A stretch of DNA of 38,759 nt, from positions 1 to 38,759 of the IMG/VR virus record IMGVR_UViG_3300037502_002277. One strand, 5' to 3'. Position numbers and translations under genes: made by a program. Below are positions 15,292 to 22,143 of the stretch, in pieces. This DNA comes from a virus. The notes beneath the pieces are model-generated. The model worked only from the letters and a program-made list of their open reading frames with translations, did not search any database and had not been told where the DNA came from. Numbering within the stretch: the stretch's first letter is position 1; each line of letters starts with the position of its first letter.

Positions 15292-15741
15292 TCAGTTGCT
15301 GCTTGGTTGGGTGCCGTCAGGATGGAGCTCGACGATGCGAACGGCGACGCCGGCCGCGGCGCCGCGTGCTGCATACCATTTCTGCGCATCGAGCTGGACG
15401 ACCTGCGAGTCGTCGAGGAACCAGTCGTCATCGGTCAGCGCGTCGAGCACGGCCTTCGCCAGGTTGTCCAAGTCGGGCCGTGCGACATGCGGGATGCGGC
15501 CGGGGTCGGCGCTCTTGGTCTCGAGGCGCTGCGGGCGCGGCAGGTAGAAGATCATCGCCACGGCCACAGGTGAGACGATCGGGTGCTCCGGTTGCTTCGG
15601 GCGCGCCGCGAGCGCGACCTGCATCTTCCACTCTTTAGCCGTGCCGGGGTCGTAGACCGAGGCGCGCCGGCCGCGCACGAAAGCGCGCGGGCGCGGTTGC
15701 CCTTTGGGCAGGCCGACTGCGAAAAAGGCGACGTCGATCAT
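15292..15741 (-). CDS. RusA-like Holliday junction resolvase
   Basis: 149 residues from ATG 15741, in ATGA overlap with the methyltransferase stop. RusA family features: an N-terminal GxPxGQPRPR strand, then ARPDLDNLAKAVLDAL with the catalytic pair Asp90 and Asp92 and a Lys at 96, and WFLDDSQV with the third acidic site at 110-111, followed by KWYA. RusA enzymes are homodimeric and cut four-way DNA junctions; in phages they resolve branched replication and recombination DNA before packaging. Located downstream of Erf and nuclease genes, consistent with a recombination module. Confidence 0.93.
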   Translation of the reverse strand: MIDVAFFAVGLPKGQPRPRAFVRGRRASVYDPGTAKEWKMQVALAARPKQPEHPIVSPVAVAMIFYLPRPQRLETKSADPGRIPHVARPDLDNLAKAVLDALTDDDWFLDDSQVVQLDAQKWYAARGAAAGVAVRIVELHPDGTQPSSN

Positions 15742-17069
15742 CGGTGCAGTCGCTCCCATAGAATGCGGAAAGCGGCGGCGGCCGTCTGCGGGACCTGCCC
15801 GTTGCCGAGCGCTTTCAGTCGGTTCGTGCGGTTGGCGGGTTTGCCGGTAACGACGCGCGGGCAGTCGTCTTCCCAGCCTGCTTGCCACGCGGTGCCGTGT
15901 AGCCGTCGACCTGCGTCCAGCCACGAGGCCAGCCCATCAGCAGCTCGACCCACTCGGGGTTGAGTTTCGGCGGATCCGGCTGCGCATCCTGGCGCCCCGT
16001 CCCACCGTCCTCGCGGACGTAGTCCGTCAGCGCTGGCAGTTTCCCCTGCGCGGCGCGGACATCCCTCCCAGCTATTGCGTTCGCCTCCTCGAACTTGAGC
16101 GCCCCCGACATCCAAGCTTGGCGAGTCAGTCTCACCGTTCCATCGCATGGTCGGCCGCTCGACGTTGGTGTAGGTAGGTTCGGCTGCATATGCAGGACCG
16201 CTGCATTCAGCGGCAGCGCGTTCCGGTGATGCTGCGACGGTCCGCCGTTGTGGCTCGCGTCTTGCGTCGTTGGCGTCGGCAACATCCGCACAGCCAGTGA
16301 CAGCGGAGGCGTCGAGACCTTTCCGGCTGCTTTCCGCGCTATCCATGCTGCCTCGTCCTCGTCCCCTGTTTTGGAGGCTCTCGGAGTCGGAAATAGCTGG
16401 ACCTTCGTATTGAGGCTGCAGGTCCCGTATTGATCCATCCGCCGCAGACCTGCTTCTATGCCCTCCGGTTGCGCATCGCGCGCTCTGGGAGTCGGCCAAG
16501 CTTCCGCCATTTCCTGCAGGTTCGGGGTCCTGCCTTTGCGAAATGCCGGCGAGCGCGTCCGCGTCGTTGCAAAAGGTGTCCCTAGCAAGACACCACCAGC
16601 GCTTTCGCAGGTGAGGAGCTCCGACGTCGGCTGCCGATAGCACGCACCATTCCGCATCGAACCCCAGGTCGGCCAACGACCCAAGAACGCGGTCGAGCCC
16701 TCTGCCAGTGATAGCTGGGACGTTCTCCAAGAAGACGAAACGGGGTCGCGCTTCGCAAATGACGCGGAGCATTTCCCACCAGAGGCCGGACCGTGCGCCG
16801 TCGATTCCTGCGCCCTTGCCTGCGCAGGACAGATCTTGGCATGGGAATCCTCCGGCGATGATGTCGACGCGGTCTCGCCATGCGGTGCCGTCGAAGGTTC
16901 GGACGTCTTCGTAGATGGGGAAGTCGGGGAGAGATCCATCGGCCTGCCTTGCTTGTAGAACGGCGCGCGCGAACGGGTCGATCTCGACAGCGCCGACCGG
17001 AGTATGTCCGAGCAGCATGCCGCCGAGAATGCCGCCGCCGGCGCCTGCGAATAGGTGCAGCTCTCTCAT
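15738..17069 (-). CDS. DNA cytosine-C5 methyltransferase A (443 residues)
   Basis: ATG 17069 overlaps the preceding stop (ATGA); a longer start eight codons upstream is less likely. C5-methylase motifs: I, LFAGAGGG (6-13); IV, GGFPCQD with nucleophile Cys77; VI, ENV (115-117); VIII, RKRWW near 155; and motif X, NRLKALGNGQVPQ, near the C-terminus. The variable region (~165-390), where target recognition lies, is a loose Ala/Asp/Arg/Gly-rich sequence with repeated ADAN/ADS-type motifs. A second long reading frame in the +1 frame (15815-16939) overlaps this whole gene. The enzyme probably protects phage DNA from host restriction. It is clearly related to methyltransferase B at 21091-22143. Confidence 0.92.
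   Translation of the reverse strand: MRELHLFAGAGGGILGGMLLGHTPVGAVEIDPFARAVLQARQADGSLPDFPIYEDVRTFDGTAWRDRVDIIAGGFPCQDLSCAGKGAGIDGARSGLWWEMLRVICEARPRFVFLENVPAITGRGLDRVLGSLADLGFDAEWCVLSAADVGAPHLRKRWWCLARDTFCNDADALAGISQRQDPEPAGNGGSLADSQSARCATGGHRSRSAADGSIRDLQPQYEGPAISDSESLQNRGRGRGSMDSAESSRKGLDASAVTGCADVADANDARREPQRRTVAASPERAAAECSGPAYAAEPTYTNVERPTMRWNGETDSPSLDVGGAQVRGGERNSWEGCPRRAGETASADGLRPRGRWDGAPGCAAGSAETQPRVGRAADGLASWLDAGRRLHGTAWQAGWEDDCPRVVTGKPANRTNRLKALGNGQVPQTAAAAFRILWERLHR
15815..16939 (-). CDS. Overlapping +1-frame ORF inside methyltransferase A (possible dual coding)
   Basis: 374 codons entirely inside the methyltransferase gene in the +1 frame. From opposite motif VI onward it is not a random shadow: it carries SWRTSQLSL, RWPTWGSMRNGAC, repeated PTPR/PTPT-type motifs (WPTPRARD, FPTPRASK, LPTPTTQD, LPTPT) and LNPEWVELLMGWPRGWT near its end. 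The same motifs in the same order occur in the +1 frame of methyltransferase B, and I recognise this series from phage proteins annotated as C5 methylases. It could be reached by internal initiation or +1 (-2) frameshifting, or it may be conserved for another reason. No strong ribosome-binding site is evident at its first ATG. Expression is unproven. Confidence 0.4.
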   Translation of the reverse strand: MDLSPTSPSTKTSEPSTAPHGETASTSSPEDSHAKICPAQARAQESTAHGPASGGKCSASFAKRDPVSSSWRTSQLSLAEGSTAFLGRWPTWGSMRNGACYRQPTSELLTCESAGGVLLGTPFATTRTRSPAFRKGRTPNLQEMAEAWPTPRARDAQPEGIEAGLRRMDQYGTCSLNTKVQLFPTPRASKTGDEDEAAWIARKAAGKVSTPPLSLAVRMLPTPTTQDASHNGGPSQHHRNALPLNAAVLHMQPNLPTPTSSGRPCDGTVRLTRQAWMSGALKFEEANAIAGRDVRAAQGKLPALTDYVREDGGTGRQDAQPDPPKLNPEWVELLMGWPRGWTQVDGYTAPRGKQAGKTTARASLPANPPTARTD

Positions 17070-20769: not shown

Positions 20770-21098
20770 TGCTGGACCTCCGGCAAGACGCGGCCGTAGC
20801 CAAGACAAACGCAGCACAGCGCCCAAGCGTAGCCGTAACCGATGCCGGACCGCCGCAGGTTGTAGGCTCCTTGGCCCTCGCAGCGTCGGCAGCGCTCGGC
20901 GCCAGCGGTCTCAAGGTCACGCGACGTCTGCCACCAAGGCCGCCACCATCGCGCCATGTGCATCGCGACGTCGACGTAGCGCTCGCATTCGTCGATGCGA
21001 AGATGCGGCAGCCGCGCTGCCGTTTGCAGTGTGCGCTGCTCCTCGCGCCATCCGTCGAGGTCGCGGCAGCCGCGCGGCGGTTGTTCGTTGTCACTCAT
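20766..21098 (-). CDS. Cys-rich CRD/zinc-knuckle paralogue 1
   Basis: 110 residues from ATG 21098, overlapping methyltransferase B by 8 bases. It opens with EQPPRGCRDL, shared with two other proteins here. The C-terminal half has CRRCEGQGAYNLRR (Cys70, Cys73) and CCVCLGYGRV (Cys95-98), a DnaJ-like CxxCxGxG zinc-knuckle pair. A Trp-rich patch WWRPWW sits in the middle. Its two relatives lie at 22143-22352 and 22345-22671, on the other side of the methyltransferase. Function unknown; metal and nucleic-acid or protein binding likely. Confidence 0.7.
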   Translation of the reverse strand: MSDNEQPPRGCRDLDGWREEQRTLQTAARLPHLRIDECERYVDVAMHMARWWRPWWQTSRDLETAGAERCRRCEGQGAYNLRRSGIGYGYAWALCCVCLGYGRVLPEVQQ

Positions 21099-22143
21099 TT
21101 CCGTGCATCCTGTCCCAAAGAATCGACCAAGCAGTCGCCGCGCACTGCGGCACTTGACCGTTTCCGAGCGCATGAAGTCGGTTTGTGCGGTTCTTCGGCG
21201 GTAGCGTCACTCGCGGCTTGGTTTCCCACTGTCCGGTCCAGAATCCTGCGGCGCTGCGGTCCATCCAATCGGCCAGCCCATCAGCTCCTCGACCCATTCG
21301 GGGTTCAGTCGCATCGCCGGGTCGTGATTCGTCACGACCGCGTTCAGCGGCGGCGCATTCCGATTCTGTTGCGACGTTGAGCCGTTGTTGTTCGCGTCTT
21401 GGCAGGTCGGCGTCGGCAGCATTACTGAGCGCGTCAGTGACTGAAAGTCGCCGCTCTTCCTCGTTGCGTTGCGTCCGTCGTTCGCCGTCGGCGTCGGCCA
21501 TATCCTCGCAAAGTCCACCAGCGTCACGCCCGGCTTCATCGCTCCGCCCTCGTAGCCCACTCGAGCCGCTGACTTCGCATCGCCGCACGTCGGCGTCGGC
21601 ACTGCTCGAATGAACTTCTCGCTGCGCACGCGCATCATCTTGGTTGGCGTTCCGACCAAGAATCCAGATTCGTTCTCGAATGTGCGGTGCGCCGACATTT
21701 CTCGCCCCGAGCACGCACCATTCCGCATCGAACCCGATCTCGGCCAGCGATCCAAGAACTCGATCCAGCCCCCGAGTAACGAGCGCTGGGCTGTTTTCCA
21801 CGAAGCAGTAGCGCGGTCGAACTTCGCGAAGGATGCGATGCATGTGCCACCAGAGGCTGCTTCGCTTTCCGTCGATGCCGGCTCCACGGCCTGCGGTGCT
21901 AATGTCTTGGCAGGGGAATCCGCCGGCAACAACGTCGACGCGTCCTCGCCATTTGGTGCCATCAAACTGCGTGACGTCATCGTGAATCTCCATGTCGGCA
22001 GGTAGGAAACCTTCTGCGCGCCGCGCCGACAGAACGCGGCGGCAGTAGGGGTCGATCTCGACCGCACAAACGGGACGGTGCCCCAGCAGCATTCCGGCGA
22101 GGATCCCACCTCCGGCGCCTGCGAAAAGGTGAAGCTCGCGCAT
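21091..22143 (-). CDS. DNA cytosine-C5 methyltransferase B (350 residues)
   Basis: ATG 22143 overlaps the upstream stop (TGATG). Motif I LFAGAGGG (6-13), motif IV GGFPCQD with Cys78, motif VI ENS (116-118), motif VIII-like IRERIW near 155, and C-terminal motif X NRLHALGNGQVPQ. The first ~160 residues closely follow methyltransferase A, with shared blocks such as LLGH.PV.AVEIDP and RGLDRVLGSLA. The target-recognition region is about 90 residues shorter than in A, so the two enzymes probably methylate different sites. The gene is crossed by a +1-frame ORF (21207-22109) with the same motif set as the one in A. Local GC is lower than in neighbours. Confidence 0.92.
   Translation of the reverse strand: MRELHLFAGAGGGILAGMLLGHRPVCAVEIDPYCRRVLSARRAEGFLPADMEIHDDVTQFDGTKWRGRVDVVAGGFPCQDISTAGRGAGIDGKRSSLWWHMHRILREVRPRYCFVENSPALVTRGLDRVLGSLAEIGFDAEWCVLGARNVGAPHIRERIWILGRNANQDDARAQREVHSSSADADVRRCEVSGSSGLRGRSDEAGRDAGGLCEDMADADGERRTQRNEEERRLSVTDALSNAADADLPRREQQRLNVATESECAAAERGRDESRPGDATEPRMGRGADGLADWMDRSAAGFWTGQWETKPRVTLPPKNRTNRLHALGNGQVPQCAATAWSILWDRMHGNE
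21207..22109 (-). CDS. Overlapping +1-frame ORF inside methyltransferase B (possible dual coding)
   Basis: 300 codons in the +1 frame relative to the methyltransferase, the same relation as in gene A. It contains SWKTAQRSL, RWPRSGSMRNGAC, VPTPTCGD, WPTPTAND, LPTPTCQDANNNG and LNPEWVEELMGWPIGWT. In the 28-residue stretch starting PTPT, I count 19 identities to the A copy, against 15 of 27 in the methyltransferase frame over the same bases, so the overlapping frame is at least as constrained there. Whether it is translated is unknown. Confidence 0.4.
   Translation of the reverse strand: MGSSPECCWGTVPFVRSRSTPTAAAFCRRGAQKVSYLPTWRFTMTSRSLMAPNGEDASTLLPADSPAKTLAPQAVEPASTESEAASGGTCIASFAKFDRATASWKTAQRSLLGGWIEFLDRWPRSGSMRNGACSGREMSAHRTFENESGFLVGTPTKMMRVRSEKFIRAVPTPTCGDAKSAARVGYEGGAMKPGVTLVDFARIWPTPTANDGRNATRKSGDFQSLTRSVMLPTPTCQDANNNGSTSQQNRNAPPLNAVVTNHDPAMRLNPEWVEELMGWPIGWTAAPQDSGPDSGKPSRE

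Follow-up and report, generated by a model that had tools for sequence, protein, structure and literature searches.

A fully overlapping gene pair in a tailed phage very likely encodes a two-subunit C5-cytosine DNA methyltransferase

The window analysed here, a stretch of 38,759 nucleotides (IMG/VR record IMGVR_UViG_3300037502_002277), is a phage contig with a lambda-like tailed-phage gene set. Gene B (21091–22143; minus strand, as are all features of the window described below) starts at ATG 22143, stops at 21091–21093 and encodes in its methyltransferase frame, here frame 0, a protein of 350 amino acids. Residues 8–175 match the C5-cytosine methyltransferase family PF00145 (E=1.9e-33), and the protein also matches phrog_363 (2.5e-64). 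The protein carries motifs I–VIII and X of a C5-methyltransferase catalytic subunit; those found in order are I, IV (the PCQ motif; GGFPCQD, 21904–21924), VI (the ENV motif; FVENSPA, 21784–21804), VIII (GAPHIRERIWIL, 21658–21693) and X (LGNGQVPQ, 21145–21168). In the AF2 model of this chain, confidence is high at residues 1–185 and again in the C-terminal segment that motif X opens (330–347; pLDDT up to 96), but falls below 50 for about 190–326, a middle of ~130 residues that is predicted to be disordered and in which the linker reads as ADAD-rich. A Foldseek search with the model returned M.HaeIII and M.HhaI as best matches, with ~174 of 325 residues aligned, which is the length of the large-domain core of these enzymes.

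M.HaeIII and M.HhaI thus resemble the gene B catalytic subunit in their large domain, but they are single chains whose small domain, comprising the variable region and motif IX (PMC3404938), lies in the same frame. The frame-0 chain of gene B does not contain that pair of elements: residues from about 190 to 326 are predicted to be disordered and, at 80 frame-0-selected loci, the motif IX pattern was found in frame 0 at none and in the +1 frame at 61. Because the middle is predicted to be disordered and motif IX sits in the +1 frame, we regard the frame-0 protein as a subunit rather than as a complete single-chain enzyme.

The +1 frame of gene B is open for 311 of 350 codons, from the methyltransferase start (open up to 22142) to a stop at 21207–21209, and for 300 codons when counted from GTG 22109 (21207–22109). 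Its product, the putative second (beta) protein to the alpha subunit of frame 0, has the motif order SWKTAQ (21786–21803, the +1 reading of motif VI), RWPRSGSMRNGAC, three PTPT..D repeats (21396–21599; copies at 21579–21599, 21477–21500 and 21396–21416) and LNPEWVEELMGWPIGWT, a motif IX-like helix (21258–21308) that frame 0 reads as EPRMGRGADGLADWMD. The repeats occupy the position of the variable, target-recognition region. In the +1 proteins generally, repeats of the PTPT..D type are followed by LNPxWVEWLMGWPxGWT in place of motif IX; across 104 such sequences M277 and G278 of the helix are invariant, and P123, G126 and G131 are conserved at 90% or more (alignment A5). The same alignment marks WPRSGSMRNG (21717–21746), part of a segment modelled as strands, as a conserved core.

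Both +1 proteins of the window belong to PHROG 1008, with matches to phrog_1008 at 3.2e-30 for gene B and 1e-29 for its paralogue, gene A. Searches of Pfam, NCBIfam and PDB with the +1 protein sequence returned nothing significant, and a structure search with its model gave no fold match. That AF2 model is poor overall (pLDDT 61, pTM 0.31), being confident only in the strand-rich stretch (91–140) and the IX helix (block pLDDT 87). For want of such matches, and given the poor model, the assignment of this protein to the small domain draws on its motif, on where that motif lies and on the split relatives described below. Start candidates are GTG 22109, GTG 22067 and ATG 21980; the last, a candidate internal start (21978–21991), has its ATG at 21980–21978 with GGAG upstream across a 7-base gap, a combination that is not conserved in relatives. 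A conserved internal start at an I-x-D-D-V site was also considered and rejected, as no Shine-Dalgarno-led start backs it in relatives.

Gene A repeats this arrangement. Its frame 0 (15738–17069) encodes a paralogous catalytic subunit (PF00145, E=1.7e-35) with motif X at 15786–15809, and its +1 frame (15815–17065), open for 416 of 443 codons, has the motif order and relative frame of gene B, with the IX-like motif at 15914–15964. The earlier note on this DNA had described the 300-codon frame of gene B, its motifs and the matching frame in A, all of which we confirm. It had also counted identities between A and B in the stretch beginning PTPT; 19 of 28 in the extra frame is exact, whereas the methyltransferase frame has 15 of 28 rather than 15 of 27. 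Its view that the extra frame is locally the better conserved is right, and codon-position rates place this in the variable region. A single phage has, then, a pair of divergent dual-frame methyltransferases whose frame-0 proteins are 58% identical and which perhaps provide two specificities.

To gauge the openness of the +1 frame we used a null in which synonymous codons are shuffled inside the gene, keeping the methyltransferase protein and codon usage. Within single genes this gave P=0.030 for B and P=0.0024 for A. Gene B by itself is only suggestive and would not convince, and we therefore gathered relatives through their methyltransferase frame, in two sets of which the second is more distant. 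With related genes taken as separate observations, 82 of the 84 genes of the first set have a +1 frame that exceeds the null in length (P<0.05); this set comprises 79 genes from the scan, A and B themselves, and three phage genes to which the +1 frame had led. In the more distant set the figure is 74 of 80. The null is calibrated: 9 of 164 neighbouring control genes fell at P<0.05, and these controls held 2642 stops against 2647 expected. Open +1 frames also occur in genes of 41–50% G+C, and the +2 frame, counted in the first set, is full of stops. Stops are depleted in both directions in 33 genes, again counted separately. Shuffling of frame-0 codons predicts 35.5 stops for the +1 frame in the linker, where there are none, and 81 in the N-terminal half, motifs I–VIII, where there are 5; shuffling of +1 codons predicts 128 frame-0 stops in the linker, where again there are none. 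Each frame is kept open beyond what the other would lead one to expect, as in overlapping genes.

Codon choice at single sites tells the same story. Among frame-0-selected genes, with relatives likewise taken as separate observations, the NEL near the N-terminus has AAT as its Asn codon in 71 of 71 (27 expected), which yields a +1 ATG inside ATGAATGAG; the Val codons that give +1 Trp are GTG in 61 of 61 and 47 of 47 (21 and 16 expected); the Asp, His or Asn codons that give the +1 Met of MGWP are xAT in 62 of 62 (22 expected); and the Val or Leu codon before EN in motif VI is xTG in 59 of 59 (19.1 expected). Motif X codons, examined as a control, show no comparable bias. The conserved +1 ATG may be read as an indirect sign of +1 translation; the conserved ATGAATGAG start is not present in the +1 frames of A or B.

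Substitution rates by codon position were taken from nucleotide alignments of 32 independent pairs of relatives, protein-guided alignment being poor in the linker. Over motifs I–VIII the rates at frame-0 positions 1, 2 and 3 are.15–.19,.09–.12 and.37–.38, with position 3 fastest. In the linker (.375,.170 and.166) and in motif IX (.208,.078 and.084) the fastest position is instead position 1, which is position 3 of the +1 frame, and at motif X position 3 is fastest again (.139,.096 and.292). The A–B pair alone shows the same switch, with the +1 frame the more constrained between motifs VIII and X, on fewer sites. Constraint is thus shown to alternate domain by domain, following the methyltransferase frame as far as motif VIII, switching to the +1 frame for the variable region and motif IX, and returning to the methyltransferase frame at motif X; purifying selection acts on the amino acids of both frames. 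The suggestion in the earlier note that two paralogues with an open second frame point to selection is borne out, weakly by gene B alone and decisively by the family; the simulation it had named as its possible undoing, in which frame 0 alone accounts for the open second frame, was run with the calibrated null and does not reproduce it.

Known enzymes divide these motifs between polypeptides in two ways. In M.EcoHK31I the large subunit carries motifs I–VIII and X, together with a predicted TRD, and the small subunit carries motif IX; in M.AquI, subunit 1 has I–VIII and subunit 2 has IX–X (PMC3404938). Compared by published motif layout only, gene B shares the division of M.EcoHK31I (YGGCCR), I–VIII plus X against IX, but differs in that its frame-0 linker is predicted to be disordered and its constrained variable region lies in the +1 frame, not in the larger chain. 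The division of M.AquI (CYCGRG) is the layout of four relatives: L173 from Paraburkholderia, L181 from Spirochaetia, Streptomyces phage Samy and Mycobacterium phage BabyBack. In these, frame 0 ends directly behind motif VIII; PTPT repeats, motif IX and motif X are all borne by the +1 protein. The +1 frame of L173 and L181 is open from a point close to the methyltransferase start. Gene B differs from M.AquI in having motif X in frame 0 and two frames that overlap along almost its entire length. From the split layouts we conclude that motif X has shifted from subunit to subunit, the repeats remaining with the +1 protein. Successive parts of a further profile, phrog_116, are matched by frame-0 proteins and by the +1 protein of Samy. 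A third layout occurs in Rhodococcus phage ReT1v-2 (L010, 1760–2959), with motifs IX and X in frame 0 and LPTP repeats in +1.

PHROG 1008, which is labelled 'DNA methyltransferase' in phages, includes the +1 proteins (Paenibacillus larvae phage Bloom matches phrog_1008 at 6e-72 and BabyBack at 5e-88) and is a profile that comes without a functional account. Our literature search found no statement that its members overlap phrog_363-type methyltransferases and no description of the present overlap, which is no proof of absence. Two-polypeptide C5 methyltransferases have been described as rare exceptions. The small polypeptide of M.EcoHK31I may likewise be read from an overlapping frame, in which case the present family would be a large extension of that precedent.

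We consider it very likely that the fully overlapping pair encodes a two-subunit C5-cytosine DNA methyltransferase whose halves assemble into one enzyme. Frame 0 would supply the catalytic subunit, with motifs I–VIII forming the AdoMet-binding and catalytic large domain; its ~130 disordered residues would pass over the region that is read in the other frame, and its motif X would fold back onto the large domain. A separate protein, read from the +1 frame, would bring the variable, target-recognition region, the PTPT..D repeats and the motif IX-like small-domain helix. From the sequences we infer that this protein is translated separately, associates with the frame-0 protein and recognizes the target, and the two would assemble on DNA into one methyltransferase. 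The earlier note named no product for the second frame; the data gathered here favour a variable-region and motif IX subunit of the same enzyme.

We weighed three other readings of the locus. Two ribosomal frameshifts, from 0 to +1 after motif VIII and back before motif X, would produce one conventional fused methyltransferase and leave the other readings meaningless. The succession of constraint, 0, +1 and 0, fits such a twice-shifted protein, and its motif order (I–VIII, variable region, IX, X) would be canonical. However, the silent frames should then be unconstrained, whereas stops are strongly depleted in exactly those stretches (5 against 81 in +1 over motifs I–VIII and 0 against 128 in frame 0 over the linker). 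The +1 ATG is also locked near the gene start (AAT in 71 of 71), and in L173 and L181 frame 0 ends after motif VIII while +1 is open from near the methyltransferase start. We judge this explanation quite improbable.

That the +1 frame instead encodes an independent overprinted protein, for example a regulator or inhibitor in which MGWP is no real motif IX, gains some plausibility from the lack of any Pfam, PDB or fold match. It leaves frame 0 without a folded small domain or motif IX (0 of 80), however, and it sits poorly with the methyltransferase motif X borne by the +1 protein of the split relatives and with the matches to phrog_1008 and phrog_116, so we hold it to be unlikely. The notion that the second frame is a by-product of the frame-0 sequence and high G+C could appeal to the modest P=0.03 of gene B alone, but it is contradicted by the shuffles with their calibrated control, the reciprocal loss of stops, the codon locking and the rates, and by open +1 frames at 41–50% G+C; we give it almost no credence.

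Extending the two-subunit reading to the family, we lean towards the view that many cytosine methyltransferases of phages and prophages, a major class of them, are obligate heterodimers encoded twice over, in which a disordered stretch of the catalytic chain frees bases for a modular +1 target-recognition subunit. If so, these genes would rank, among bacterial viruses, with the most widespread cases of same-strand overlap over nearly the full gene length. The split itself appears to be usual across this large family of phage genes, in which the two subunits are overprinted for ~300 codons and selection can be measured on either frame. The alternating constraint, with predicted disorder opposite the recognition region, offers a clean and testable system for the persistence of long overlaps, and a naturally split methyltransferase could be useful for targeted methylation.

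Hundreds of genes in phages and prophages of many bacterial groups share the dual-frame design (hosts of MAGs are uncertain), and the relative frame is constant in almost every locus. In Gammaproteobacteria it was found in 5 of 229 genomes, one of which was the centre of the search; the family is thus found widely yet in few genomes, a pattern that prophage cargo would be expected to show. A GRLDEWGG linker module in +1 is shared by three distant loci whose catalytic cores are only 47–65% identical. At these loci (L226, L243 and L256) the +1 module reads SNHGKNHVxGRLDEWGGSxNPxRGT with small differences, and motif X in frame 0 is RNGQVP or RNAVVP rather than the GN form. The recurrence in these few loci suggests that the recognition module may be exchanged along with the 3' end; linker modules that recur in this way, here in a small number of cases, are what exchange of recognition modules would lead one to expect.

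As a rule, databases list just one protein of the pair. Salmonella phage S9-5 has frame 0 alone annotated; in Pseudomonas phage phPA-G (L256) only the +1 frame is annotated, as a hypothetical protein (1201–1929), and the methyltransferase frame, which ends at 1913, is unannotated. Since annotation may cover either frame or both, half of the enzyme is often missing and its putative specificity part is filed as hypothetical. In P. larvae phage Bloom (L251) GenBank names both frames (999–2054 and 1201–1905) 'DNA cytosine methyltransferase'; we found no discussion of this doubly annotated locus in the 2018 genome paper (PMC6070908). Many P. larvae phages carry that name twice. In an E. coli prophage (L254) the dual gene is a pseudogene, with stops in both frames a few bases apart, at about 1560–1570.
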